DNA of 64,000 nucleotides, taken from positions 1 through 64,000 of the forward strand of contig JACATO010001568.1 of NCBI GenBank assembly GCA_018389105.1. The letters are read 5' to 3'. This DNA is from Nautilus pompilius (Eukaryota > Mollusca > Cephalopoda > Nautilida > Nautilidae). Within the stretch, counting starts at the first letter, position 1; every line of letters begins with the position of its first letter. A program made the position numbers and the translations under genes. Under the pieces are notes generated by a model. That model did not search any database. It was not told where the DNA came from and saw only the letters and a list, made by a program, of their open reading frames with translations. Shown in pieces: positions 2,704 through 61,549 of this stretch.

Positions 2704-4436
2704 CCTCAAAAGTTCGTTTCAATGAAATTGTGGAGCGGTCTTTGACAAGGCAACACGCATGTCATGTCTGACATCCATTCGATTTCGACTTTTCGTTTTC
2801 ATGTGAACAAGTGCTGAAAACTCTGACTCTCAAAAGTATGTAGTAGCAAACGGAATCAGAGCACCCGTAGCCTGCTTTGCCAGACAAGAGTAGGCTTGTG
2901 TCAACGAACACCAGAATTCTCCAAGACTATTGGAGTTGAATTCATTACGTATCATTTCCTTTGTCTTCAGGTCAATGAGGTCATTTTTTGGCACGGTCTT
3001 CATCACTGATACAGTCTATGTCAGCAATGAGAGGATTATGAATCCATATTTCAACTTTAAGGTCACCTGAGCAGAAGTAACCTTTCCGAGAGTTCTGCAG
3101 TGTATCCAGATGTCTGCAGCTTTCTGCCTACAGAAAAATTGACAGGGCTTTTGTCACTCTCGATTCCATCCTGCAGAAGCACTTCCTCTAACATTGGAAA
3201 GTTTGCATAGTTGTCTGCCTTGAATCTCCTTGTCCACAGTGGCAGCTTGGCCAAAAGAACTTGCAGTCTTTCAGCAGCATCCATAATGGTGACTGCAGGG
3301 TCTTGAATCGAAAGATTCACCTCATTCACATGGCCAAAAATATCTGCCAAGTAAGCCAAGCCATGAATGAACTCCTCCCTGTCAAACTATTCTGAGAATG
3401 GGCTTTCTTTTTCTCTCAAAAAAAGTGAAACTTCTATCCAAGGTTCAATCAAGCGATTCAAGATTTTTCCTCTGGAAAGCCAGCGAACTTCTGTGTGGCA
3501 GAGAAGAACTTCATATGCTGCTCCCATTTCTTGACAAAACCTCTTGAAAACGTGATGGTTCAAAGCATTGTCTTTGATGAAGTTGACGACTTTCACGCCA
3601 GTAGACAAGACTTCTTTCAGGATTGCTGGCAGAGTCTTTGATGCCAATGCATGGCAATGTAGAAAACAATGGGTCACAATGACCTGAGGAGCTTCTTTCT
3701 TCACCAAAGCAGCAAAACCAGATATTTTGCCAAGCATCACAGGTGCTCCATCTGTGCACAGAGCACCAAGATTTTTCTTCCAGTTAAAGTTTTGCTTGGC
3801 AAAGAAACTATTCATTATTTCTAAGATGTCGATGGCCTTTGTAGTTTCCAAAAGGGGCTCACAAAATAGGAATTCTTTGATGGCACCAGTATGCATATAA
3901 CGGATGAAAACCAGGAGCTGGCTGCACTGAGAGACATAAGTAGTTTCATCCAGTTGCATGCTGAACGGAAATGGCGTAGCTGCCAATTCCTCCATTACTT
4001 GCTTGAAAACATTTTTAAAAATGTCAACAGTTCTGGAGTGGATGACGTTATTTGACAATGGCACCGCTTCACTTCCTCTGCTATAAGCCACAAACCAGCT
4101 CGATCATTTCCAGGGCACATGGCTTTACCAAGGTCTCTCCAATCATATGTGGCTTCTTTTGTGTCGGGGCAAATCCAATTTTTGTAAAGTTCCAGCTTTC
4201 TCAAATCAAGTCGCCTTCGCACGAAAAAGATCAACACTGTCCGGTGTATTTTCATGGTGGACAGATGTGAGATGCTCCTTCAGCTTTTTTGGCTTCATGC
4301 TTCCATTGGCAAAAACTTTGCCACACAGGAAACACTGCGGCTTTTGTGTCCCATCATGTTCAGCGATGAAAGTAAACCAAAAGATACGTATGCTTCGTTG
4401 TACTTCCTTTTCTTTGACATTTCCAACTTGAGCTAG
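2704..4436 (-). pseudogene. hAT transposase pseudogene, ZBED5/SCAND3-like
   Basis: This decayed minus-strand reading frame is the hAT-type transposase seen in domesticated proteins such as ZBED5. It starts with MSKKRKYNEAYVSFG near 4420. After a one-base frameshift it has a BED-type zinc finger (CFLCGKVF, then KEHLTSVH). The catalytic core spans about 4091-3387 and contains LDETT and CTDGAPVMLG, with RWLSRG further on. The C-terminal hAT dimerisation region lies near 2700-2850 (SEFSALVHMKTKSRNR). Breaks include the early frameshift, a further shift near 4080, another near 3390 and a shift at an A-run near 3000. An in-frame TGA also stands where the family has Cys before ESEF. The longest open segment is 234 codons. 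A hAT end lies just downstream. It is a dead transposon copy, not a working gene. Confidence 0.93.
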
Positions 4437-25243: not shown

Positions 25244-25507
25244 TTTTTTTTTTCCTTTTCACACTTTCAAAGAGAATATCTACTTTAGATTTTAAAAGGT
25301 AAAATGTTTGTTTTAGTTTCGTGAGTCTGTACACTTTCTTTTTTTTGAGGTGGTGGGTGGGTGTGTGTAAGGTTGCGTTTGTTGTGTGGGGGAGCTGGGT
25401 CGGTTCCATGTTCGGCCGTCCGTCACAGCTGTTATGAGTGAGGCCTTATTTCGACCCGTGTTTTGTGTATGTGTACCTATTGCTAGTGAGAGCAGCGGGC
25501 TACCCAA

Positions 25508-25530
25508 CTCCTCCGTAAATACGGCAGGAG
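25508..25530 (-). repeat. Conserved LINE 3' hairpin, copy 1
   Basis: On the minus strand CTCCTGCCG and CGGAGGAG form a stem with one unpaired G around the loop TATTTA. The same hairpin with different loops occurs in the plus-strand array at 54252, 56560 and 57999, each followed by a GGGTAGCC or GGGCAGCC block and CTGCTCTCAC-like sequence. LINE reverse transcriptases often recognise a 3' stem-loop; that role is inferred here. Confidence 0.75.
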
Positions 25531-25559
25531 AGGTAGGATTTTTCCAGGCTGAACCCTCG

Positions 25560-28273
25560 GAACAGAGTTTTCTCTCTGTGTGTCCTTAGACAGAAGTATA
25601 TATCACGTTGGGATAATTGTTCTACATCATGCCGATTGTTACCTAAGCTTACTGTGGTTCTGCTTGTATGTCTGTGATGGACTTGATCCAGTTAGTGAGG
25701 GCGCTAACGTGGTAGTCTGTGCTCTGTATAGTTTGGAGTTTGTTAGTTAAGACATGCAAACCATTGGGGGGTATCTGGGGAGTCTCGTTATTTATTTGCC
25801 AGGTGTTTGCGCCCTTGACACAGGAACCAATCAATCTCGGCGTCTATGGCAGCGCGCGCCCACGCTGACATTCCTATTATTTTTTATTTGTAATAGATTT
25901 TTGGTGCGGCGTATGTGTGTATGAGTTGAGATTTTGTAAGATAGGAGAGGTTTGAAGAAGACCATGCTGTCAGTAAAGCCTTGATCTTGTTAACGGTGTT
26001 TGTCCAGTTATCTTTGTGTGTTAGTGGGAAAGAAGATGCCTAGTAATTATTTTGGCCTCATAACCATGCTGCTGTGGTCTTCTGTTTGTTGATCTTTGCT
26101 CCCGAGGCCTTTGCGTAGACCTCGAGAGCCTCCTGCAGGCTATCCATGTCCTGCAGGAAGAGCGTTGTATCGTCGACGTACTGCTGAACTTTGACGTCAC
26201 TATACCCCTAATGTTACCATTAGACCGGATAAAGGCCACCATCGTCTCAGCAGAGAGGATATAGAGCATGGCGCTCAGGGGGCATCCCTGCCGTATGCCT
26301 CTAGTTGGGTGGATAGGCGAAGAGAGGAAACCGTTTTGTTGTATTTGTGTGGTGATGTCTCTGTAGAGAAGGTGGATGAAATTAACGAAGTACTCCCCAA
26401 AGCCTAGGGCTTTAAGTGTTCTTATCAGAAAATTCCAATCTACCCTGTCAAAGGCTTTCTTTTGATCAACGGCTAGCATAATTCCAAGGGAATTTTCCGT
26501 GTCTAGCCTACTTGTGATTTCTCTGAACAGCTGGAGGGTATTCGTGATACTCCTACCAGGAACTGCGCAGGTCTGGTCAGCACTTGTAACTTTACCAATT
26601 ACTTTGCCTAGCCGATTTGCTAGCACCTTAGTAATAATCTTATAATCACTATTTAAGAGACTTACGGGCCTCCAGTTCTCCAGGTACGCCCCGTCGCCCC
26701 CCCCCCCCTTCGGCAGCAGGACGATGGTGGTGGCACACTGGGATTCTGAGAGAACCCCCCTACTGTATGCGCTATTCGCAACGAAAGTCAGGTCCTCTGC
26801 TAGGAGATATTGAAATCTCTTATAAAAGTCTAGCGTAAGGCCGTCCTTTCCGGGAGTCTTGTCTTTATTTGAGGCCCTAATGGCCTGTTTTACCTCATTC
26901 ACGTTTATGGGGCCTTCGAAGAGTTCGGCATCTAGGGGGTCTAGTTTATTTTCCAGACACGCCAAGATTTCGTCCTGAGCTGAAGGACAAGTGTCTTCTC
27001 TAGTGTATAATTCACTATAGAACCGAGACTCTTCCTCTAGGATGTCCTCCAAGTTAGTGAGGGTCTGGCCGTCTTTGTTTATTAATTTATTTATTGTTTT
27101 TCCCGTTTCTCTCTAAACCACAGAAGGATCTCCTACAACCTTCACCGTTCATGGCCGGTACTCGGGCCCTAATCCTCGCTCCTTCTGTTTTGTCTACCTG
27201 AATGCGGTTGATCTTGGTTTGGATGGCTTGTATCTTTTCTTTGTTTTCTAGTCCTAAAGCGGCCTGTTTAAGCTCTAGCTTTAGTTCCTCTTTCAGTCTA
27301 GATTCTATTATAGCTTATATGCACTACGTGCCTGACTATACCTTATGCTAAGTTCCTTATTCTGTCCTTGCCTAAGTCCCACCATTCCAGGGGGTCGGCG
27401 AACTCGTCCTTGCGCAGGGACCAGTTTCTCCAGATGTTCTGGACGCTCTCGACGTACTCCGACTCGGTCAGAATAGCGTTGTTGAGCTTCCATAATCCGG
27501 GTCCTCTGGTATTCGCTTGAATCAAGAAGCCGGCCGTGACCTGGGAATGGTCACTCCACGCGATAACGTCGTGCGCCACGTCCAGGAGTTGCCTAGCCAT
27601 GTGTTTAGATGCGTACACTCTGTCTAGTCTAGTGGCCACACTATACTTTTTACTATAATGAGTGTACGACAGCGCGTTCGGGTGTTTATATCTATCCGCA
27701 TCGACCAGGCCAAACCGCGAACACATGGTCTGCAGTTGTGGCGCTCCCATCAGATGCGTCCTACATTTAATGTCTGATCCCTGCCTGTCTAGCTCATGGG
27801 AGGGGACACAGTTGAAGTCGCCTGCAATGTATATGTCGTCTGCAGGGTATGACCTAAGTTCCTGCTCTAGTATATCATTGAAGCGCAGAAAGAACGCTGT
27901 CCGCTCCTTCGCAACGGTAGGGGCGTACACCGATACAATCATTACTTTTCTTTGGAGCTGGTTTTGGTAGCTGGCTATGACGATCCGTCCGTCGTCGTCT
28001 TTGTAGGTGTGTTCTATCTTTGGTTGTATGTTTGGGTGAAAGAGGATCGCTACACCTTTCTTTCTACCTATAGGGTCTAGGCTGGTTACTGCTAGTCCAT
28101 GCCAGTTGGTGAAGATACTTATCTACCTCATGGTTAGACTGCAGATGCAGTTCTTGCATGCAGATTATGCGGTCGTGTGTGGTGTGTGTCAGTTGATCTA
28201 GGTAGGTATTCCAATGTTTGTTGAATTTTATCCCTCTTAAATTCAGGGATAAGATTTCTAGGCGTCTAGACAT
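25560..28273 (-). pseudogene. LINE ORF2: APE endonuclease plus reverse transcriptase, broken
   Basis: The frame starts MSRRLEILSLNLRGIKFNKH. The endonuclease follows: CMQELHLQ, then after a shift GVAILFHPN, then IVSVYAPT, AGDFNC, RLDRVY and SDHSQV (about 28270-27530). The linker holds KTPGKDG. Reverse transcriptase blocks are WRPVSLLNSDYKI, DQKKAFDRVDW, RGIRQGCPLSAMLYILSAE and the catalytic YVDD (near 26180, after a one-base deletion). The thumb region (LSYLTKSQLIHTY, SAWARAAIDAEIDWFL) follows with stops. The zinc-knuckle C-terminus found in the plus-strand array at about 55520 is absent, apparently deleted before IYFCLRTHREKTLF. In life ORF2 would nick the target and copy the RNA at the break. 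This copy has several frameshifts and cannot do so. Confidence 0.93.
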
Positions 28274-28355
28274 AAAATCGTGTTCAAGAGATCATAGTCC
28301 GTGGTCGTTACCCTAATCGAGGCCGAAAGATCCGTCCAAAAGGAAGTGACGTCCT

Positions 28356-29506
28356 TCAGGTGGGCACTTCCATGCCATCAGCCCCTTGAGGCGTGTGGGG
28401 TGTAATTTTTTCAAGGACCACGGTGGGCGCCATGTTGGGCCTTTCCGCGGTCGCCTCCTTGGGCTTTTCCCCCTGCTCTTTTGGGGGTTTTTCCACCTTC
28501 CTCTCCTTTTTCTTGGGTGGGGTCGGTGGGTTAGAGTCCCGGACGGTTCTCTTCGGTCCTTTATTTCTCTGCGGCTTGCGGACCGAGACGACGACAAGGT
28601 CGTCCTCTCCTTCGGAGGCTGTTGGAGTCTTAAAGCCATCAGGGGGGTCCTTGCGTCCCTCTCCCGGGTCCTCCTGCTTTATTATGGGCGGTGTTTCCGC
28701 TGGGGTGTTGGTCTCCGTGGTGGGCTGCCGATCTTGTTTACTTGGTGTGGCTTGTCCCACCGTGTCCAGTTCTTGGGGTCTGGGCCTACTTACCTCTGCC
28801 TCTCTTTCAGCTCCCGTCGGGCAGCTGAAACGCGTATGACCTGTTGTCCGGCATATGCGGCAATAAGGTGGAGGTGCTGGCTGGTCCCGATAGAACACGG
28901 AGAAACTGTATGTCCTCCCATCCACAGTCTCCTGTATTCTCCTTGGTATCGGCTCTCTGAGTAGCATCTTGCCGCTCCTCTGCCCGGAGAGGAGCAGCAG
29001 CCCAGGGATGCAGTCATACTTAAGAGGTATGAGCGTCTGCCATAAGTATCTGCTGTGGCACTCTGCAGCCTGTTGTAAGGGGCAAGCCCCTGATCTTTAC
29101 CCACGCGAGGGGCGAGGCCCCCCTCATCACGTGGTTTATGCCTTTTATTGTCAGGGCTCTGGTGCAGAGCTCCTCCGCGTCACGGGTGGTACGGCTGATC
29201 ACCTCGATTGCCCCCCCCCCCGTAACTTGGGATCACCGCTCTGACCTTAGGAAGGAGCCCGGCCAGGTTTAGAGCACGCCCGACGTCCTCGCAGTAGACG
29301 CCGGTGGCAGGCGTAACGAAGAGAGAGCTTTGTCTCTCAAATTTCAGGCTGGACGCGTCCTTAGCGTCCAGCTCAAGTTCACGAAGGAACTCCTCAAAGG
29401 AAGGCATTCCTTCCTGGGCCCCATTGTCCTTAGAGGAGCATACCTTCGTGGCTGTGGTGTTGTTGGTGGCGGTTGCGTAACTTGTAGATGGTTGGGGCTC
29501 CATCAT
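28356..29506 (-). pseudogene. LINE ORF1 (gag-like, CCHC), frameshifted
   Basis: The start is fixed by the sequence MEPQPSTS, also found at 55335 and 58971. An N-terminal helical part (MPSFEEFLRELELD) leads to VRAVIPSYGGGG, where an 11-C run (29211-29221) shifts the frame. It continues with MRGASPLAWVKIRGLPL, another shift, then EPIPRRIQETVDGRTYSFSV. A single CCHC zinc knuckle follows, CRICRTTGHTRFSC (C-x2-C-x4-H-x4-C). A Pro/Lys/Glu-rich tail ends GADGMEVPT. Proteins of this type bind the element's RNA. ORF2 starts about 80 bases after the stop. Closely related ORF1 sequence recurs at four other places in the window. Confidence 0.9.
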
Positions 29507-29599
29507 GCTTGTTATGTGCAGCTCGCTAATGACTAGGCCCTCCTGCTGTACCTCTTTGTTCGGCTGGTGGTGAGGCAGTCAGTCACTAATCCGATTAGG

Positions 29600-41573: not shown

Positions 41574-42530
41574 CAGAGGTGGGCAAACTTTTCTCCCTAA
41601 GGGCCACATGGAACATCCATAAGGTCTCTAGCAGGTCACATTCGACAAAAAATTAAATTTAATAAAAGTTATTTTCACACAAAATACAATTATCAGGACA
41701 GGTTTACACAATTTCCTGGTGAATAATGCAACGGAATGATAACAGTGTGAAGTGGATGCTCACCTTTCACTTTGTCATTAAGCAGCTTTATGAGGCCAAC
41801 ATGTTTTCCTGTTAATGCAGGTGCACCATCTGTTGTAATGATTGCCAACTTGTTCCAAGGTAAACCAGATCCATACAAATCTTGGCCAGTTGTGGCGTCC
41901 CTCAATGGTTCAACGGACAGAAACTCTTTAGTAATTGCAAAATTATCATCAATTCCTCTAATAAACACAAGCAGTTGTGCTGTGTCTTGTATGTCAGTGC
42001 TCTCATCTAGTGCCAGTGAGTACCACTCGAATGACTTGTCAGCCTCAAGTAGTTGTTCTAACAGATTCTACAAAATGGCATCAATACAACGAACTACAGT
42101 TCTCTCCTTGACAAGATATAAGCTTCAATTTTTGTTCTGACTCTGGGCATGCAATATCAACAGCATCAAGCATACAATCCTTTAAAAATTCTGCTTCAGA
42201 AAATGCTTTGTTATGTTTGGCAATTTTATAAGCAAGGACAAAACTGGCCTTTGTGGCAGCCTCTTGTATGGTTGGTTTGTTTTACAAAAAAGTTTGTTGT
42301 GTTTTAAACCTCTCAACACGTCATCGGCTATTCACTGTAGTTCACTTTCTGATAAATTACTTCAAAGTTTCTGTGCTTAGTCCGAAAATGTCTCTTCAAA
42401 TTATACTCCTTAAAAACAGCAACACTTTATGCCATATTAGACACACTGCTTCACTTCTAATATTTGTAAATATTTGTACATCCATTGCTTGTTAAACGTA
42501 CGGTATTCATCTTCATTTTTCCGGGGTTTT
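41574..42530 (-). pseudogene. hAT transposase remnant, GTF2IRD2/Charlie-like, with one terminus
   Basis: The terminus CAGAGGTGGGCAAACTTTT (41574-41592) is a classic hAT/Charlie-type end, preceded by a possible 8-base target duplication half (CACTAGGC). On the minus strand the N-terminal part reads RTFNKQWMYKYF, then CLIWHKVLLFLRS and KRHFRTKH. That is a BED-type finger with its second Cys changed. The core reads VEPLRDATTGQDLYGSGLPW and LAIITTDGAPALTGKHVGLI, with the DGA.. catalytic surround. There are stops and frame changes between them. The C-terminal dimerisation domain is missing, and I could not find the opposite terminus. The host gene GTF2IRD2 contains a relative of this transposase; nothing suggests domestication here. 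Confidence 0.87.
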
Positions 42531-45213: not shown

Positions 45214-45517
45214 CAGACAGGGCAGGTAGGTAGGTAGGCAGGCAGGTAGGACGGTAGGTAGGAGGGTAGGTGGTAGGTAGGTAGATAGGAGGTAAGGTAG
45301 GTAGCTGGGTAGGTAAGGTAGGTAAGGTAGGTAGGTAGTAGTGGTAGGAAGGTAGGTAGGAGGGTAGGTGGATAAGTAGGTAGGTAGGTGGGTAGGTAGG
45401 TAAGGTAGGTAGGTAGGAGGGTAGGTAGGTAGGTAGGAGGGTAGGTAGGTAAGGTAGGTAGGTAGGGGGTCGGTAGGAGGGTAGGTAGGTAGGTAGGCAG
45501 GTAGGTGGTAGGAGGCC
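45214..45517 (+). repeat. TAGG tetranucleotide microsatellite
   Basis: About 300 bases consist almost entirely of (GGTA)n with scattered interruptions such as GGAGG, GGTGG and AAGGTAGG. The minus-strand frame through it reads repeated Pro-Thr-Tyr-Leu and is a by-product, not a gene. Confidence 0.95.
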
Positions 45518-52479: not shown

Positions 52480-53232
52480 TGTCGGCGTCGGTGTTGGTTC
52501 TGGCGCAGGGGTGATGGAGGCATCAGAACAGGTCGCCTCCGTGTGCCCTATCTCCCAACACCGTGTGCAGAAGGGGGGGGCACGAGGCTGATCCCGATAG
52601 ACTACCTGGAAGGTGTAAAACCTGCTGTCAACTTCTTCTCTTATCCTTCGAGGTATAGGCTCTGAGCATCATTTTCAAGCTGCGCTGACCGGACAAGAAT
52701 GGTAGGCCCGGCAGGCAGTCATATTTGGTCGGACGCAGAATCTTCCCAAATCTAGATAGAATGCCCTCTGGTATGGCGTTTGGTGTAGCCAGAGGGAGGC
52801 CGCGGACCTTAATCCATGCAACCGGACTGGAGCCTCTAAGGGGGTAACCCACCCCCTTAACCACCAGGTTACGGGTAGATAAGAGCTCCGCTCCGCGTCC
52901 TGAGGGGAACTGCAGAGGATCTCTGTAGCCCCCCCAGAGCCGGAGAGCACCGCCCGAACCCTGGCCCCTAATCCGGCCTCATGAATAGCCAGCCCAACGT
53001 CCACATTGTTGATGACTCCATCTCCGTAAAGAAACAGGGAGGAGTTCCTGGAGAAGCTGATCGGGCGTTTATTCTCCTGGTCATCTTCCAGGCCTTGGAG
53101 GAAGGCTCTGAAGGAAGGCTGCTCTGGAAGGTCTACAGGTGTTGCCAAAGGCGGAGGTGGTGAAGGCCGGGCTACGTCAGCAAAGGACGTCGTCGCCGCA
53201 GAGGTAGTTGGCGGTAGATCCATTTTAGACAA
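52480..53232 (-). pseudogene. LINE ORF1, second minus-strand copy, 3'-truncated
   Basis: The frame opens MSKMDLPPTTSAATTSFADV, then Pro-rich, then PSFRAFLQGLEDDQENK (N-terminal helix block) and VRAVLSGSGGATEIL. After a frameshift it reads SSPVAWIKVRGLPLATPN and PTKYDCLPGLPFLSGQRS. After another shift near 52640 a CCHC knuckle, CTRCWEIGHTEATC, follows. It aligns with ORF1 of the 28.4-29.5 kb copy over its whole length but is a diverged lineage. Coding homology ends near 52450 with no ORF2. That is odd, because target-primed insertion normally loses 5' ends, not 3' ends. A U2 snRNA remnant lies directly upstream. Confidence 0.88.
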
Positions 53233-53398
53233 AGTAGAACAAAAACCTGTAATAAAGGAAACAAAAGTTAACTTACTTAGATGCAGGCACCTGTCAGGCT
53301 ACTGCCCCAATGAGGCCTCGCCCAAATCGTTACTCGGGGATTCTCAGACTGCAATCACGAGATCTTTTTTCTCTTCTTTTTTTGGAACTTATATTATC
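53233..53398 (-). other. Spacer between U2 and LINE ORF1
   Basis: On the minus strand an A/T-rich segment is followed by a GC-rich block (about 53275-53355). A 30-base stretch bounded by GTAAGT and TTACAG then runs up to the ORF1 start. The GC block could be the true 5' end of the second LINE copy or a small structured RNA; I cannot identify it. The 30-base stretch is too short for an ordinary animal intron. Confidence 0.35.
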
Positions 53399-53410
53399 GT
53401 CTATTTTTAC
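53399..53410 (-). promoter_or_regulatory. snRNA 3' box
   Basis: GTAAAAATAGAC on the minus strand matches the metazoan snRNA 3' box (GTTTN0-3AAARNNAGA). It begins about 10 bases beyond the U2 3' end, the normal distance. Its presence shows the U2 piece comes from a real U2 gene unit rather than from a retroposed mature RNA. Confidence 0.7.
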
Positions 53411-53419
53411 ATTTGTTAA

Positions 53420-53584
53420 GAAGGAGCCGAATCCCGTCGGTACTGCAAGAACGGGCCGACTCGTGGCGAGCTGGGAGCAAGCTCCTTGCGACTCGCCGCC
53501 TTCCAAAAATCAGTTTAATATCGATGTCCCCCAAGTAGGGAACGTATCAGATATTAAGCTAAGAACAGATACTACACTTTGATC
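53420..53584 (-). ncRNA. U2 snRNA gene remnant lacking its 5' end
   Basis: The minus strand matches U2 from about nucleotide 25 to the end. It starts GATCAAAGTGTAGTATCTG, which contains the branch-site-pairing GUAGUA (53570-53575). The Sm site GATTTTTGGA is at 53502-53511, and the large 3' stem-loops are present, including the conserved TTGCAGTACCG loop. U2 in the spliceosome pairs with the intron branch point. This copy lacks the first ~24 bases (stem I and U6-pairing sequence). It also has a 3-base deletion (TTCTTA then GC) that removes one strand of stem IIa, so it should not work. The break falls exactly where a 17-base A-tract (minus-strand sense) begins. LINE sequences of one family flank it on both sides. 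Confidence 0.95.
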
Positions 53585-53601
53585 TTTTTTTTTTTTTTTT
53601 T
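53585..53601 (-). repeat. A-tract abutting the U2 break
   Basis: Seventeen T on the plus strand, or 17 A immediately upstream of U2 nucleotide 25 in U2's own sense. A same-sense LINE insertion into U2 would leave exactly a poly(A) tail here. The sequence next to it, however, belongs to an oppositely oriented array. Confidence 0.85.
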
Positions 53602-54251
53602 CGTCCTTTGTCTTCTTTCTTTCGCTCTTTCGTTTTCAGGAAAGAAGATTTTAACTTTAGGATGTCCTCATTTCCGTTTTATCATCTAGCACTACACTAT
53701 TCCTTTCAAATTCTCTTTTCTACATCACCACTCTTTATTTTCTTGTAACTTCTTTCCCCTGTTATATTCCCCTACGGATTTTCCTCTTTTTTCCCTCTCA
53801 TAACCGTACTACTTCAGTCTTCGTCGTGGAACTGGGCTCTGGCCGGGGACATGGGTTTTTTTTACCACCTCCCAGGTCGCGCTACTTCCCGTCATCATCT
53901 CGCTGACGGGGTCTTCTAGCCCCCCAACGCGGGACATCAACATTGAGATGTGTCGGATCTGATTCGCGGGATGATCTTTCTCAACCCGTCCATTGGACCG
54001 CGACATACTTTTCTCTGTTCTCCACTATCAGATGTCTCTTCTACTTTTTGAGGGAAAAACGTTGTTTCCCCTCCTACTTTTGGCATTTCTGCCACAATTA
54101 AAAAATTAAAGAGCCTCTTCCCCATCCAGTTGGATTTTGTGTTTAAAATAAACAGTGGTTCCCCCCCCCACCCCACCCCAGCATACACCTCTAGGGACAG
54201 GCGGAGAGTAAACTCCGTTTCGAGAGTCCAGCCTCTGGAAAAATCGTACCT

Positions 54252-54273
54252 CTCCTGCCGCTTTGCGAAGGAG
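54252..54273 (+). repeat. Conserved LINE 3' hairpin, copy 2
   Basis: CTCCT pairs with AGGAG, and CGC pairs with GCG across a TTT loop. The inner stem differs from other copies on both arms, a compensatory change that keeps the pairing. Confidence 0.7.
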
Positions 54274-54852
54274 ATCGGGTAGCCCGCTGCTCTCACTCAG
54301 CCTCCTCCCTCCTCAGAATAGCACCACACGGACGAAAAAAAGATCAGATAGATTTTGTGCTTAGGAAGACGAGATCGTCCCGCTCGAAGAGGCGCTGCCC
54401 AAGTAGAGTCGCTTTTGTGGAGCCATCCAACCTCTGGTCGCCGAAAGGTCAGTTTGGATTTTTCATCCCAGCCCGTAGTTTTTTTGCTAAATTTTCAGTA
54501 ATTATTAATTCCCTCGAGGAAAGTTCCCCGCTCGCATATCGTCAGTTAGATTACCTAGGTTCTTTTTCAGGTTTAGATGCAGGTGGATCTTGATAGCACA
54601 GGTTAGTTCCGTCCTCTCTTCTCTCTTTCTGATTCTGCGCGTAGTCTAGACACCACCTGCTGCTGCGTAAGGTAAGCCTATAGGCACGTCGGAGTTCGGT
54701 ACTTGTAGGGTTAACGATCCCCCACCGTTTTTGCCGAATCTCCACCTAGAGTCTATTTATAGTTTATGTTTCTATTTTCACTTTCCCTCTTTAGCTTAGA
54801 AGTGCGTGACGTAAATTGTAGGTCCCCTCCCATTGTTAGCTTAGCGTAGGTC

Positions 54853-54865
54853 GGCCATCTTGGCT
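54853..54865 (-). promoter_or_regulatory. YY1-like site in array unit 1
   Basis: The minus strand reads AGCCAAGATGGCCGA around here, matching the YY1 core AAGATGGC. Its surroundings (GGAGC nearby) resemble the YY1 site at the start of mammalian L1. It is repeated in unit 2 at 57028. It lies upstream of ORF1 but on the opposite strand. Confidence 0.5.
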
Positions 54866-55334
54866 TAGCTCCTTCCACGCACGTGGTAAATTTTAGCGCC
54901 GCGTCCGTCTTTCCTATCTCATTGTTCTCTTCCAGTGTCCGCCGCCGCCGCCCAGTGGGCCGTGTTTTTAATAAAGGAGCCTACTGGGCTCTAACCCCGG
55001 CAGCTCGCCTCCATTTTCAGCCTTTGCGAGTGTTTGTTCACAGCCCTGGTCATCGCCACGTGCCGGCATCCATTTGTCTATTGTCCGTCTCCGTGTGTTT
55101 TGCCGTCTCCCCCAGCATCCTTAAGCTCTCTTACTCTTTCTATCCTCCTCTATCCACTCGGTAGGTTCCTCGGTCCATCCCCCCCAGATTTTCGCTATCT
55201 AGACTCTTTCCATCCACCTCCATCCCGCTATCCTAGCAGCCATCCTTCCTTCCTTCGCCCCTTAACCTCTCCCTCGACACCTACTCCTCTCCAGTAGGCC
55301 CCTATTTCCGTCGGTAAGAACACCGAAGACATCG

Positions 55335-55940
55335 ATGGAGCCCCAGCCGTCGACTTCAACCAACGTTGATTACGCGAAGGCCGCCTTCGCAAGCTCCCAG
55401 CGAACCATCCGATAGACCTGGGGCCGATAACGGGATAAAACCTTTCGGCCAATTCCTGGAGGAGCTCGCCATCAACCCCGGCCACCCCAAGAACCTTACG
55501 TTCGAAAACAAGAGCTCGAAATGCCTCGCTTGTCCCGAGCAGGACGACACGGCCATCCACTGTCTATTCTCCTGCCCCGGCAACATAGAACTGTGGAGCC
55601 CAGTCCGAGATTTGGTCCTTCGCATTCAAAGTCCCCAGGACAAACTCACTTTGTACTGGCGCATCTTTGGGTTCCCCCTTCGAGTAAAAAGAACCGTCTT
55701 TCGAACTTCCTGGTCTTCTCCGCCCAGCGGATCCCTTGGGGCAGTCGGAAGGCTCTAGAGGGCGGTCAGCCCACCTCAACCAAAACTACGTGACGATTTA
55801 CTGACGGCAAAATATACGGTCATGCAGTCCAGCATCACTGACAGGGCGACATACTCGTCCATCTGGCTCATCAACGGCGAATTTCCGCAGGTAACCGTCT
55901 ACTACTCAGCACAGAATGAACCAACAACCTACAGCCTCAT
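55335..55940 (+). pseudogene. LINE ORF1 N-terminus fused to ORF2 C-terminus
   Basis: ATG at 55335 opens MEPQPSTSTNVDYAKAAF and soon hits TAG; the ORF1 N-terminal block resumes in another frame as FGQFLEELAINPGHPKNLTF. Without a break the frame then runs into CLACPEQDDTAIHCLFSCPG. That is a Cys/His knuckle of the kind that follows the reverse transcriptase in ORF2. SKKNRLSNFLVFSAQRI, the typical ORF2 tail, follows in a third frame, then TAKYTVMQSSITDRATYSS and NGEFPQVTVYY to the end. The rest of ORF1 and all of the endonuclease and reverse transcriptase are missing. This is one large internal deletion joining ENKSS to KCLACP. The unit could have been mobilised only in trans. Confidence 0.8.
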
Positions 55941-56559
55941 CACCAGGCCAACCCCCGGAGTTCACCTCCGTCGGCGGGCTACGGTGCTTTCGACCTACGA
56001 AGTTTCGTCCACTTTCGCCACAAGAACAAAGATTTTAACCCTTTCCTCTTCCTTTGTCTTCTTCCCTTCGCCTTTCGTTTTCAGGAAGAAGATTTTAACT
56101 TTCGGAAGAATTTTATCATCACCTTTACCTTTCCTTCATTTCCACCCCTCCCAGCCACCATCTATTTATAACTTTCCCCCTCCTCCTTACCCCCCCGGAC
56201 CATCCTCGTTCTTCCCTCCTATCAACGTGTTTCACTTCCTTCAGTTGCGGAATTGGGCGCTGACCGGGTCGATGGTCTTTCCACCGTCTCGGCCGCGCTA
56301 CTTCCCCCTCAAAACTGCTGCAGGGGTCTTCTAGTCCTACGCGGGAGCTGCACCCTTCAGGGAACGGGGCACCGGTCAGCGCGATGACCTTTCACCTCGC
56401 TGTCCGGGCTACTTCCGTCCTTTTCGCAAGGCGAGGGGAGAACGTTGTCTCCTCTCATCGGCAAATCGAGGCCGATACAGATCCCTCCCCCTCCGGTCGG
56501 ATGTCTCAGTGGCCCCTGCATACACCTCTAGGGACGGGCGGAGAGCGAACTCCGTACCT

Positions 56560-56580
56560 CTCCTGCCGGCTCACGGAGGG
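56560..56580 (+). repeat. Conserved LINE 3' hairpin, copy 3
   Basis: CTCCTGCCG and CGGAGGGG flank loop GCTCA; one G-T pair replaces a G-C-type pair. It is followed by GTCGGGTAGCC as in the other copies. Confidence 0.7.
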
Positions 56581-57027
56581 GTCGGGTAGCCAGCCCCCTG
56601 CTCTCCCCCCTCACAGCACTCAGCAGATTTCCGGTGTAGAAGACGAGACCGACCAACTCGAGGACCCATCGCGGCCGGTAAAGTTCCTTTGGAAGACCAT
56701 TTCTCGCCGGAAGGTAAGGGGCCGTTTCTCTGCTATTTCCAGTAATCTCCAGCTCCCGTAATTATTAATTCCCTCGAGGAAATAACATCACCTCCACATC
56801 ATCAGTCAGCTTAGGGATTCCTTTTCCAGGATTGGCCCCGGTAGACAGCTTGTTTATAGTGTAAGCCGCCCTTTTAGGGCTCGTCCAAACCCCCTCCGTG
56901 ATAGTCTCGGTTCCCCCTCTGTCTCCAGGTGGATTCCACCCCAGCGCCTCTTCATAGTCAGTTTTCCTCTGTTTCTTTTCCTTTCCAGCTCAGAAGCGCG
57001 CGATTAACTGTCAGCTTGGTGTAGGTC

Positions 57028-57040
57028 GGCCATCTTGGCT
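57028..57040 (-). promoter_or_regulatory. YY1-like site in array unit 2
   Basis: The minus strand reads GAGCCAAGATGGCCGAC, nearly identical to the unit 1 site. It was retained while surrounding bases diverged. Confidence 0.5.
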
Positions 57041-57369
57041 CAGCTCCTCTTCACACCACGTGGTACATGTCAGGCGCGCGCCCGTTCTCTGCTTCACACC
57101 CTGGTCCCCGCGCCTGCTACCCCCAGGGAGGCCGGGTATCACCAATAAAAGAGCCTACTAGGTTTTCCTTTTGCAGCAGCGGACCTCATCAGTGCGGTTT
57201 TACGGCGTAGAACTTCGGCCATTTACGGCACCGGCCGAGCGCCGTGACTGGGTCAGCGCCACGTGCCGGCCTCCCTCCGTCTCCTCCTGTCCGTCTCCCT
57301 GCGCCAATCTCCTCGATGTCTGTCTATCCACTCGTTAGGCTCCTCGACCCGTCCCCCCCCGGTATTTTC

Positions 57370-57500
57370 GCATCACTGACAGGGCGACAAATGCATCCAT
57401 CTGGCTCATCAACGCCGCCCATCAACTCCGCCCTCGCCTCATCTCAACTCCAGGCCGACCCCTCGAGTCCCATCACCACCCCTACGTCCGTCCGCCGGCT
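57370..57500 (+). pseudogene. Residual ORF2 3' end of array unit 2
   Basis: CATCACTGACAGGGCGACAA here repeats the ORF2 C-terminal sequence of unit 1 at 55834 and continues CATCTGGCTCATCAACG. In unit 2 it follows straight after the 5' region (CCACTCGTTAGGCTCCTCG, unit 1 equivalent at 55155). So almost all of ORF1 and ORF2 is deleted in this copy. Confidence 0.65.
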
Positions 57501-57998
57501 GTTCACCTTTCTGATGATGCCTACGTTTCGTCTGGGGACTAAGATTTTAAAACTCCTTTTCCTCCTCTTTATCCCTTCTCCCCCTTTTCGTTTTAGAGAG
57601 ATTGTAATTTTCGGAAGATCTTATCTCATCGGCATCCCTCTCCGTCTCCCAGCCTCCATCTATCACTTCTTCCCTCTTTTGGACTAACCTCGCTTCTCCC
57701 TCTCTCCTGCAGCTTCATCACCTCTGCTCCAGCTTCTGCCTTCACGATGTGGAATTGGGCGTCGGTCAGCATGACGACTGTCACCGGGCAACCTCCCGTC
57801 TACACCTCGACCTGACGTCATCTCCGACCACCACGTGACGAGGGGAGAACCTGTCTCCATCCATTTTCTCCTCACACGGCACTTTAAGCCTCATCTCAGA
57901 CTCTCGCCTCCCTCATCCGGTCACCCCAGCATACACCTCTAGGGACAGGCGGAGAGTGAACCTGTATCCGAGAGTCTCAGCCACGACAAACCGTACCT

Positions 57999-58020
57999 CT
58001 CCTGCCGTCTCACGGAGGAG
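57999..58020 (+). repeat. Conserved LINE 3' hairpin, copy 4
   Basis: CTCCTGCCG and CGGAGGAG flank loop TCTCA. The arms are identical to the minus-strand copy at 25508, while the loop differs. Confidence 0.72.
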
Positions 58021-58405
58021 TTTGGGCAGCCCCCTGCTCTCACCAGCCTCCCCTTCAAACCTCGGACGACCCCGAATTCCGACAGCAGAGCCGTTTTCTT
58101 CGAAGATACAGCATCTTCAAGGTAAGACACTTTTTTATGCAAATTTATTCAAATTTCCGTGCGTTTTGCGTTTTTCTCGAGTTCCTCGTGCTGTGAATTT
58201 CTCAGCCTAGCGACCTATTGTTAGTTAGTTTTCTCCATCCTGTGTTCACTCTTCGATTTTGGTGCCAGATTAGTTTAGAATGGACTTTGTTAGTCAGAGA
58301 GGGGCTTTGGTGATTAACCCTGTGTCAGGTTCTCATGCATATTCATTAGGTGGGCGGATCACTTTCCTGCTATTTATCTCTTTGTTAGCTCGTGCTGAGC
58401 CCTCA

Positions 58406-58795
58406 GGTTATTGTCTGTAGATTATCGCGTAGAGCTCGGGGTATTGTCTGTAGATCATCGTGTATAGCTCGGGTTATTGTCTGTAGATTATCGCGTAGAG
58501 CTCGTCGCGTAGAACTCGGGTTATTGTCTGTAGATTATCGCGTAGAGCTCGGGTTATTGTCTGTAGATTATCGCGTGGAGCTCGGGTTATTGTCTGTAGA
58601 TTATCGCGTAGAGCTCGGGTTATTGCCTGTAGATTATCGCGTAGAACTCGGCTTATTGTCTGTAGATTATCGCGTAAAACTCGGGTTATTGTCTGTAGAT
58701 TATCGCGTAGAGCTCGGGTTATTGTCTGTAGATTATCGCGTAGAGCTCGGGTTATTGTCTGTAGATTATCGCGTAGAGCTCGGGTTATTGTCTGT
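58406..58795 (+). repeat. 33-bp minisatellite, about 12 units
   Basis: The unit reads GGTTATTGTCTGTAGATTAT followed by CGCGTAGAGCTCG. Units are exact multiples of three bases apart apart from a short irregular start, so one frame stays open with LLSVDYRVELG repeated. Some units vary (GTGGAGC, GTAGAAC, GTAAAAC). It lies upstream of ORF1 in the third array copy, in the position where the others hold 5' UTR. No evidence of translation is seen. Confidence 0.95.
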
Positions 58796-58970
58796 GTTTA
58801 ATACTTAAATAATTTTAGGACATAATTATTTTCCCTGACTTAGATTAATTACTGTGACAGGATCCCTCTCTCCTTTGTTCCCCTCCACCCTTCACTGCTT
58901 CACCCTTTGACCACCGACTGTTTTCTGTCGCCTTTACTAATCATCTCTCGCTCTGTGTTTATAGTAACTG

Positions 58971-59375
58971 ATGGAGCCCCAGCCATCAACCGGTGATGCG
59001 GAATCGTCGCCGAGGCTGTTAAAAGCCCTGACGTAGGGATTAATCCAACTCCCGCGAAGGACGACGGGGCCACCGGTATTCCGTCCTCCATGGAATTCCT
59101 GCAAGAGCTGGATATGGAGCCAGGCAACCGGAAGAACCTAAGATTGGAAAAGAAGAGGTGTCTCTTCATAGACTGGAACAACAGCATGGCCACCTCAGAA
59201 GTCGGACGGCCTGAACGAACGAGTGAGGGCGGTGCTCAGTAGCTATGGGGGCGGGGCTACTGAGATAATTGGCAGTTCCTCGGCTAATGTCGAACTCCTC
59301 TGTACGAAAAGTCTAAACGTAAAAGGGACCAGCCACGTGACGAGGGGAGCCAGCCTCTGTCCACTGTCAGCTCCT
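58971..59375 (+). pseudogene. LINE ORF1 fragment, array copy 3
   Basis: ATG at 58971 opens MEPQPSTGDAESSP; other frames continue MEFLQELDMEPGNRKNLRLE, then VRAVLSSYGGGATEI, then ELLCTKSLNVKGTSHVTRGA. These match ORF1 of the 28.4-29.5 kb copy in order. At least three frameshifts break it. It stops short of the CCHC knuckle near 59370. Confidence 0.8.
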
Positions 59376-59787
59376 TGTGTTAGGGACCCCGTGTGAGCAC
59401 TTTGTGGGTGTTTAGGGTGACAAACTTAGTTTCTCCCGTAGCTCATTAATATTAAGTGGTCAGGTGCTTTCTTACCGATTAGTTTAATTTGGCTCCGTGA
59501 GATCAGTTCTTAGACTCAGATTATTTCCCAGATTTTCAGTGAGGACTCAGACTTTCTCTCTTGCTTCTCTCTGTGAATTCCGTGGATACTCGGGTTATTT
59601 TGTGTTATAGTTCTTTTGTTTGACCTTTTAATCCTCTACTTTCTGATCTCAGAACAGATGATCCTCTGCTCCCGTCTTCCTTCTCATCTTGTATCTTTCT
59701 TTTATTCCATCCCACCCGGCTCCTCGCTCCGTCCATCCTTTTCTTCCGTCTATTGTTAACCTGTCGGGTACCGGCGAGACACCAACG

Positions 59788-60338
59788 ATGTTCCTACGAG
59801 TACCCGACCTCGCTGATGAGGCCGGTAACGGGATACAGTCGTTCCGGGCTTTCCTCGAGGAACCTGGACTTTGAGGCTAAAAGTTCGCTATTCCTCTATC
59901 CAGACAAAACCATCCATTGTCCCGATGTAGGTCCGGCCTCGCTGGACGCTGGCCGACACGACGGCGGGGCCACCGAGGAACTGCTGTGTACGACATTAAA
60001 GGGATCAGCCCCATAGCGTGGATTAAAATTAGGGGTCCACCACTCAGTGCAGGGTGTAAAATTCCCCGAGAAGTACAAATGACGTAAAAGGAGACACCGG
60101 CTGAACGCACCAAGGTTGGCACCGTCTCCCTGAGCGACGAGGAGGAAGGAGACTCGACCCCCTTCGTCGAGGTGACGCGGAAAAAGGCGGGCAAGAGAAC
60201 CGTCAGGGGATCTATGCCCCCCCCCCCCACACCACCAGAAAGCTGAGAGAGGAGGATGGCTGAATCGCCTACAGCCCGGTCGCTGGATGCCCCTCCAAAC
60301 GTGACTCAGGGGACCGACCCCATGGAAGTGCCCACCTG
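59788..60338 (+). pseudogene. LINE ORF1 fragment, array copy 4, CCHC region deleted
   Basis: The reading GIQSFRAFLEEPGL precedes EAKSSLFLYPDKTIHCPDVG, then ATEELLCTTLKG, then IAWIKIRGPPLSAGCKIPRE. It then jumps to the C-terminal tail VEVTRKKAGKRTVRGSMPPP and, after a C-run shift, TDPMEVPT with a stop. The part carrying the zinc knuckle is missing. It is followed by an ORF2 start at 60407 in the same spacing as the minus-strand LINE. The first ATG at 59788 does not carry the MEPQPS start of the other copies. Confidence 0.8.
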
Positions 60339-60406
60339 ATCGGTGACCCTTCCTTTCGGACACAACTAGGTAACGTCCACGGACGAACGAGATCGGTATA
60401 GCGATC

Positions 60407-60600
60407 ATGGCTAGACGATTGGAATATTTATCCCTGAATTTACGAGGGATTAAATTCAATAAACACTGGATTACTTACCTGGATCATCCAGAACATTCCG
60501 CAAACCACGCTATCATGTGTCTCCAAGAACTACACCTAAACAGCCAACGCGAAATAGATAGATACTGTACTAACTGGGCCAGACGACTTTTACCAGCTAC
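60407..60600 (+). pseudogene. LINE ORF2 start, truncated after the first endonuclease motifs
   Basis: ATG at 60407 opens MARRLEYLSLNLRGIKFNKH, then IMCLQELHLNSQREIDRY, equivalent to the start of ORF2 in the 25.6-28.3 kb copy. Coding homology ends within about 65 codons, where composition drops to AT-rich. No reverse transcriptase, 3' UTR or poly(A) follows, so the 3' part was lost. Confidence 0.88.
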
Positions 60601-61549
60601 TGTTGTTGAGGTTTCCCCAAGCTTGGTGCCCAACTGCCACACACAGACTACTCGCTATTCTTTAAACCCTACACTAACCTCATCAACTGGAAGTATCTTG
60701 TCCTGGACAATGATGTTGTTGATTTTTAGCTGTCTGTACTTAACTTCAGCCAGATCAGTTAAAATATTATCCACAATTTTTATAATGTTTATTATTTCCA
60801 GAAGAATTTACGAAGGATGATCTCATACAGATCTGCTAAGACTCCTCACTAACCATTGTTTGTATTCTTAACAGAACTTCCTGGGCCTCTACTTTCACTT
60901 GTTTCTGGTCGTCATTGATTCTGAAAAGGGCTTTCTGTGTTTCTTGTCTAGTAAGAAGGGTTTTTTAAAATTTCTTACGCTGATTACTTTTTTCTAAAAA
61001 TAGACATGTTGGCATTTAAAATTTAAATACAATCTAATACATGTTTTCGAGTGTTTGTTACTTTTCTGTAGCTGAACCATAGCACCTAGAGGCCCCCAAA
61101 TGTTGGGTGTAGGTACTTCAAAACCTGGGACTGCTGCGTATTGGCCTCAAGTGATTTTTTGTGCAGCACCAGATACTCCAGCTGGTTAAAAAATAAAACT
61201 TCAAAAAGTCATTATCCTGCAGTGCATGAAGCAAATCAGAGAGAGAGAGGAGCATAACTCAGATATACTTATCAGAATATTCCAAACTCAGCCAGAATTC
61301 CTTTTTAATTAAAAAAATGCAAACTAGGGCACAAAAATAAAATGCTGTAAAATATGGAGAAAGTGCCTGGTATTTACAGCTGATTTAAATGTTTGTGGGG
61401 CTTTAGAAAACTTCAGTAGGTTAGCTTTTTATTTATATTTTCCTATTTACATTTCAATATAGCAAATCTAAATATGTATAGTATGTATTTCAAAGCAATG
61501 CCTTGTGTTGCTTTTGGCTGGCATACGTGTGAACAATGTCCATATAGAC
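60601..61549. other. AT-rich stretch, no supported gene
   Basis: I see nothing recognisable here. It begins where the LINE array stops. Confidence 0.5.

Follow-up and report, generated by a model that had tools for sequence, protein, structure and literature searches.

Keno and Utopia are LINEs that insert into U2 snRNA genes. The endonuclease is of the APE type in Keno, a member of the Tx1 clade, and restriction-like in Utopia; the publications describing them place the start of the U2 flank at about nt 39 for both, at TCTGTTCTTATC in the case of Keno (PMC4640811, PMC6136364). Occasional tandem insertions have been reported for Utopia-1_NVit, and reptile families have weaker specificity. In Drosophila 28S genes, tandem R1 arrays appear to lengthen when new elements insert into target sequence that lies at the 5' ends of copies already in place (PMC2718515). 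A literature search, with limited coverage of subscription papers, returned no U2-targeting LINE besides Keno and Utopia, and none at nt 24/25.

The stretch of Nautilus pompilius DNA analyzed here (the window) comprises the first 64,000 nt of contig C1494 in a 727.6 Mb assembly. We consider it likely that an L1-like LINE group inserts preferentially at the start of GATCAAAGTGTAGTA in a U2 variant, piling up head to tail, and that the feature in the window is such an array. The assembly contains a precise 3' junction, a 5' break at U2 nt 24, an empty gene, head-to-tail arrays, and many tail-head pairings. Like Keno, the group consists of non-LTR elements with an APE-type endonuclease that lie in U2 and have U2 3' sequence behind their 3' ends. 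The flank begins at nt 25 (GATCAAAG), however, and not at Keno's TCTGTTCTT near nt 39, so that the identity with Keno raised in the initial annotation is not supported; the arrays and the many copies outside U2 also set the group apart. Utopia shares the U2 target, the occasional tandem insertions and the weaker specificity, but combines a restriction-like endonuclease with the nt 39 flank, where we find an L1-like APE domain and nt 25. The resemblance to R1 lies in arrays that lengthen as copy after copy inserts into target retained at the 5' ends of earlier ones, although R1 targets 28S and its ancestral type makes a 14-bp duplication; here the target is U2, and families whose heads have only GATC in common with U2 share at most about 4 letters. 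If true, this would be a third U2-targeting LINE system, L1-like and at a new nucleotide, and would mean that LINEs had occupied the U2 niche once more at a different position.

The feature in the window is probably a U2-site LINE array (Table 1). U2 had been reported here from about nt 25 to its end, with an Sm site, a 3' box and an A17 tract at the break, followed just downstream by a LINE ORF1 in the same sense; our analysis agrees on both counts. The Rfam U2 model (RF00004) matches at 53417-53590 (-) with 103.8 bits (E 7.4e-20), the sole match in the window above the gathering score, and nt 25, the G of GATC, falls on position 53584. Both an Sm-type site (ATTTTTGG) and TGTAAAAATAGA, which we take to be 3' box-like, are present, and the ORF1 frame spans 52675-53298 (-) with an ATG at ~53223. 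Nucleotides 1-24 are missing from this copy, and neither the sequence, nor Rfam, nor a pattern scan of the window reveals a complete 5' end with stem I; the closest match to nt 1-26 elsewhere in the window has nine mismatches, and we regard the closest match to nt 1-18 (three mismatches, at 57571) as chance. The second-closest match to nt 25-50 in the window has eight mismatches. The initial annotation lacked two features: a second A-tract followed by GATC (53361-53383) between the U2 half and ORF1, and an opposite-sense LINE 3' region upstream of A17, where self-comparison aligns 53601-53934 with 56047-56346. As a control against over-reading GATC, it follows 8 of the 1299 A-runs of four or more in the window, the junctions described here included.

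Table 1 Features of the window around the U2 half and of related LINE copies.
Feature	Position	Strand	Basis
U2 snRNA variant from nt 25 to the 3' end, lacking its 5' part	53417..53584	-	Rfam U2, sequence, intact counterpart L036
A17 in U2 sense, abutting U2 nt 25; LINE-type 3' junction	53585..53601	-	Sequence; same junction in other contigs
U2 3' flank with 3' box-like sequence, common to intact L036 as far as GTTCC	53384..53416	-	Sequence
Second A-rich tract, then GATC (GATCTCGTG...), head of next LINE leader	53361..53383	-	Sequence
LINE 5' leader with donor-like CTAAGTAAGT; CTAGGTAAGT in other copies	53224..53360	-	Sequence
LINE ORF1, MDLPPTTSAATTSFADV..., later part in different frame from L037/L039	52675..53223	-	Open frames, sequence
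LINE 3' region with repeat blocks A and B, antisense relative to U2	53602..54334	+	Self-comparison
LINE-LINE junction, A7 then GATC	54335..54345	+	
LINE 5' region of an internally deleted copy, in which the ORF1 start (~55335) joins the zf-RVT end of ORF2	54346..56046	+	
More head-to-tail LINE copies; ORF1-like starts ~58970 and ~59880; endonuclease start near 60400	56047..60820	+	
Degenerate LINE-group copy (ORF1, endonuclease, RT), no U2 site	25345..29578	-	

The U2 model matches at 20 places in the assembly. A complete 5' end is present in three, of which two are canonical (187.8 bits) and one, L036, is a variant (163.3 bits). In eleven others (L037-L042, L044-L046, L048, L051), U2 begins at nt 25 with an A-rich tract in front, and the remaining six are degraded, retrocopy-like or otherwise different. 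The window copy is of the variant type, and L036, near a contig end, is the one intact variant gene found in the assembly. A complete U2 with a 3' box and an upstream element common to the broken copies, L036 is a putatively functional gene and the empty target site. It is very improbable that the broken copies are ordinary U2 retrocopies (processed pseudogenes) that lie beside LINEs by chance; some copies do look like retrocopies by eye (L043, L047, L050), but in 11 of the 20 matches U2 begins at nt 25 with A-rich sequence before it, and window-type copies retain native 3' flank, both of which speak against it. The canonical genes L034 and L035 (C2023) form an inverted pair ~2.4 kb apart and, by eye, differ from the LINE-associated variant chiefly in the 3' stem-loops. 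An extra A in U2 (GATCAAAGTG) is presumably arthropod-like.

A search for the junction itself with AAAAAGATCAAAGTGTAGTA, which joins A5 to U2 nt 25-38 and was allowed up to two mismatches, gave 175 matches compared to 31 for the reversed control. Among the 100 matches listed of these 175, 52 are exact and 48 have one mismatch; we read all of the exact sites and 21 of the 48. The exact sites, at which A5 meets GATCAAAGTGTAGTA, lead into 39 LINE leaders (33 h1, 5 h2, 1 h3), 9 U2 3' halves, 1 shorter U2 fragment and 3 other dispersed repeats; as the initial annotation had anticipated, many LINE copies are joined to U2 at the same nucleotide. Of the 48 sites with leaders or U2 halves, 41 are preceded by a same-sense LINE 3' tail, 6 by inverted LINE 3' region, and 1 by U2 nt 1-24. 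A LINE 3' motif lies within 300 nt in 40 of the 41 tails; L101 was placed by its tail alone. The 21 one-mismatch sites comprise 9 LINE leaders, 10 copies of a dispersed repeat that contains U2 nt 25-50, and 2 others (L042, L092). Other contigs show the junction too, behind A-tracts of differing lengths, so it is not one contig's error, and an assembly artefact is ruled out. A second repeat, dispersed and with U2 nt 25-50 following A-rich sequence (GGAGAAGAAAAGAAAA joined to GATCAAAGTGTAGTATCTGTCCTTATCAGCTAA), was seen at L054, L055, L075-L083 and L090, mostly in large contigs.

Tails and heads meet in many combinations at this base. One tail family pairs with three leader types, and another with two leader types and U2. 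With motifs at two mismatches or fewer, there are at least 11 same-sense tail-head pairings (13, or 11 if t2 and t2b are merged); a looser table at up to four mismatches gives 17, at which setting some of our motif-defined t and h classes are wrong by eye (L070 and L093 among them) and class tU2 is correct for L106 alone. Under the stricter limit of two mismatches, 27 of 73 loci have a tail, a head or both without a class. Taking each pairing as a separate insertion, we arrive at many insertions at the same nucleotide. One could argue instead that unequal crossing-over and segmental duplication amplified one or a few U2 insertions, with no target preference, and duplication has left its marks: window-type segments lie in C1494, C906, C1244, C1116 and C437, with 12.8-13.6 kb from U2 half to promoter piece, and the promoter pieces described below have a common upstream fragment. 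But crossing-over within LINE bodies creates no new tail-head junctions, several tail types meet several unlike leaders at the same base, and a tract of CAAAC plus 10 A's also sits at nt 24/25 of a dispersed U2-headed repeat, L119, making this account unlikely. Duplication may still explain parts of the pattern. The six junctions with the inverted LINE 3' region, the window type, look like one duplicated arrangement, and the similar segments in C906, C1244, C1116 and C437 suggest that the window locus itself was duplicated.

The missing 5' portion of U2 is found elsewhere. Using a genome-wide pattern for nt 4-24 that permits loop variants, we obtained 60 matches and none in the reversed control. 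Apart from the 2 canonical genes, all 58 were read: 52 are a promoter plus nt 1-24 broken at nt 24, 1 is intact (L036), and 5 lie in other contexts. The 52 broken pieces are 74-91% identical to L036 over ~62 nt of upstream sequence plus nt 1-28, compared to 42-51% farther up. After nt 24, 51 of them continue into leader-like sequence of several kinds that begins with GATC (42), GATT (7) or otherwise (2); in the remaining one, L106, nt 24 is followed by 34 A's, after which a GATCAAAG leader begins. A same-strand RT match lies downstream within 12 kb in at least 25 of these 52 pieces (17 within 5 kb), a lower bound since the count used 76 of the 112 RT rows. Together with the common leader types, these matches suggest that the leaders after nt 24 belong to LINEs. 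At three mismatches, the 5' half pattern gives 131 matches (3 in the control) and the upstream element alone gives 99 (9 in the control); more promoter or 5' half pieces thus exist than the exact pattern reveals, some of them dispersed. The 52 pieces also have in common an upstream LINE ORF1 fragment that L036 lacks, so part of them arose by locus duplication and not by separate hits in separate U2 genes. In the promoter-linked copies (upstream ends of L114-L168; L033 2149-3320), this fragment meets the U2 promoter region at about -62, and in L033, by eye, the frame from the fragment enters U2 as ...FSAFSG followed by a stop. Five copies (L119, L120, L135, L147, L157) are dispersed, begin near U2 nt 1-4 (GCTTCTCGGCCTTCTCTGGCTAA or close), and have unlike flanks and other bodies; in L119, CAAAC plus 10 A's sits precisely at nt 24/25.

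A long target-site duplication (15-17 nt) is unsupported. Families with a GATC-only head share no more than these four letters, and in 50 copies from L114-L168 the first four letters past nt 24 are GATC in 41, GATT in 7 and different in 2; in L106, nt 24 is joined directly to the A's. In the h1-h3 leaders, such a duplication is indistinguishable from inherited sequence.

The initial annotation had suggested that the locus is a hit target. A simple hit does not fit the arrangement that we find, in which the U2 half lies between two junctions of an A-tract with GATC in a LINE cluster and similar segments occur in five contigs, this one included. In its fuller form, the idea would be that the U2 half is the leftover 3' half of a LINE-hit U2 gene and that a second LINE inserted just downstream. 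The window copy does still have its native 3' box, with ~33 nt of the gene's own 3' flank, and the closest 5' half, which bears a promoter, lies beyond the window at C1494:67200 (+), 13.6 kb away. That 5' half is on the opposite strand, however, and its GATC leads into a different leader; moreover, the downstream LINE has an A-tract in front of its GATC, and a LINE inserted in the gene's flank would leave none at its 5' side. We therefore find the leftover-half explanation doubtful, if far from negligible. The U2 half is probably not what remains of a hit gene but a U2-derived module belonging to a LINE array. Because an A-tract with GATC borders both sides, it was most likely inserted at GATC as a unit, as either a polyadenylated U2 read-through RNA or a U2-containing 5' LINE leader or remnant.

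The element behind these arrays is L1-like. A 1199-codon ORF2 frame in C2327 matches human L1 ORF2p at E 9.4e-71 (242 bits) compared to E 1.5e-23 (86 bits) for the best R2 protein, and its endonuclease and RT align to residues 7-869 of human L1 ORF2p. It has an APE domain at residues 11-245 (Exo_endo_phos, E 2.3e-11) and a zf-RVT at 1021-1071, and not the C-terminal restriction-like endonuclease without APE that characterizes Utopia. By homology, ORF2 is thus L1-like in endonuclease and RT, with L1 and R2-type enzymes as the solved-structure RT matches. The group differs from LINE-1 in the zf-RVT match at the C-terminus, the U2-like leaders and the U2-site arrays. At least 112 RT matches (the best candidates) belong to the group, often several per small contig.

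To what extent is the targeting strict? We located LINE 3' ends by a nearby motif, which gave 897 matches and none in the control; from 100 exact matches listed among these (C2-C340 only), 40 were drawn at random and 20 of those used, a sample that spans the wider LINE group and not the array families alone. One end (L179) lies at a U2-like site, GATCAAAGTGTGG, one (L181) has a partial match, GATCAAATG, and 18 have no U2 sequence. Flanks without U2 had been named as evidence against a U2-targeting family, and they are common; the claim stands insofar as U2 is a target at one nucleotide, but nearly all copies would lie in U2 if specificity were strict, and 1 in 20 points to a preference. The flank begins with G in 18 of the 20 ends (scoring L175, A9TA4 followed by G, as G), compared to 24% after A-runs in the window (binomial P ~1e-9, or ~4e-9 without one of L184 and L185, which are one duplicated locus). 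We infer that the wider group inserts at A/G sites generally, with the U2 site as a strongly favoured case.

Insertion would proceed by target-primed reverse transcription with the priming nick opposite U2 nt 24/25, presumably made by the element's own endonuclease. The new copy would be bordered upstream by GATC (rarely GATT or another sequence) and followed, after its poly-A, by GATC, giving U2(1-24)-GATC-LINE...poly-A-GATC. The site would remain open, and later copies could stack up in head-to-tail order, much like R1 in 28S genes. In C437, a head that consists of U2 25-191 lies ~5.9 kb from the next U2 head, with an RT in a 1193-aa open frame between them.

The leaders invite a bolder reading. 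Three leader types open with U2 nt 25-40 or more and then diverge, and a fourth is U2 25-191 itself; in L041, the native U2 3' flank is joined to ORF1. The remaining families have GATC or GATT alone in common with U2. All 50 promoter-linked copies (L114-L168) have a donor-like GGTRAGT or near variant 73-106 nt downstream, whereas none of three dispersed look-alikes scanned alongside does; the 50 are not independent cases, since their leaders are related. We tentatively entertain the possibility that these LINEs are parasites of the U2 snRNA promoter. The first copies in an array would presumably be transcribed from the promoter preceding them; the 5' leaders of several families, from nt 25-40 up to the whole of 25-191, would rebuild the target at the upstream edge, so that a new copy could insert beside the promoter and the site be kept open; and the conserved 5' splice donor in the leader might prevent early transcript ends or permit splicing. 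The donor-like motif itself may act in splicing or in keeping transcripts going. Open-frame lengths give no sign that the newest copies lie nearest the promoter. With arrays, an intact empty site, both U2 halves and relaxed copies in one genome, direct tests would be possible of target preference, of the way arrays grow and of how an snRNA promoter is used.

The window contains other features as well. In the internally deleted LINE, the start of ORF1 is joined to the ORF2 zinc-finger end at 55335-55760 (+); its zf-RVT match (E 0.0066) is under the curated cut-off. The degenerate copy at 25-29.6 kb has a 3' flank, GTGTACAGACTCACG..., in common with L184 and L185 (both C314), a duplicated locus. 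Frames at 3387-4103 (-) and 41693-42067 (-) are presumably derived from hAT-like transposases; the former has a DUF4371 match under its cut-off and the latter no Pfam match. An AGGT tetranucleotide repeat of ~73 units occupies 45224-45512, and a 33-bp tandem repeat of ~12 units lies in a LINE 5' region at 58402-58795.
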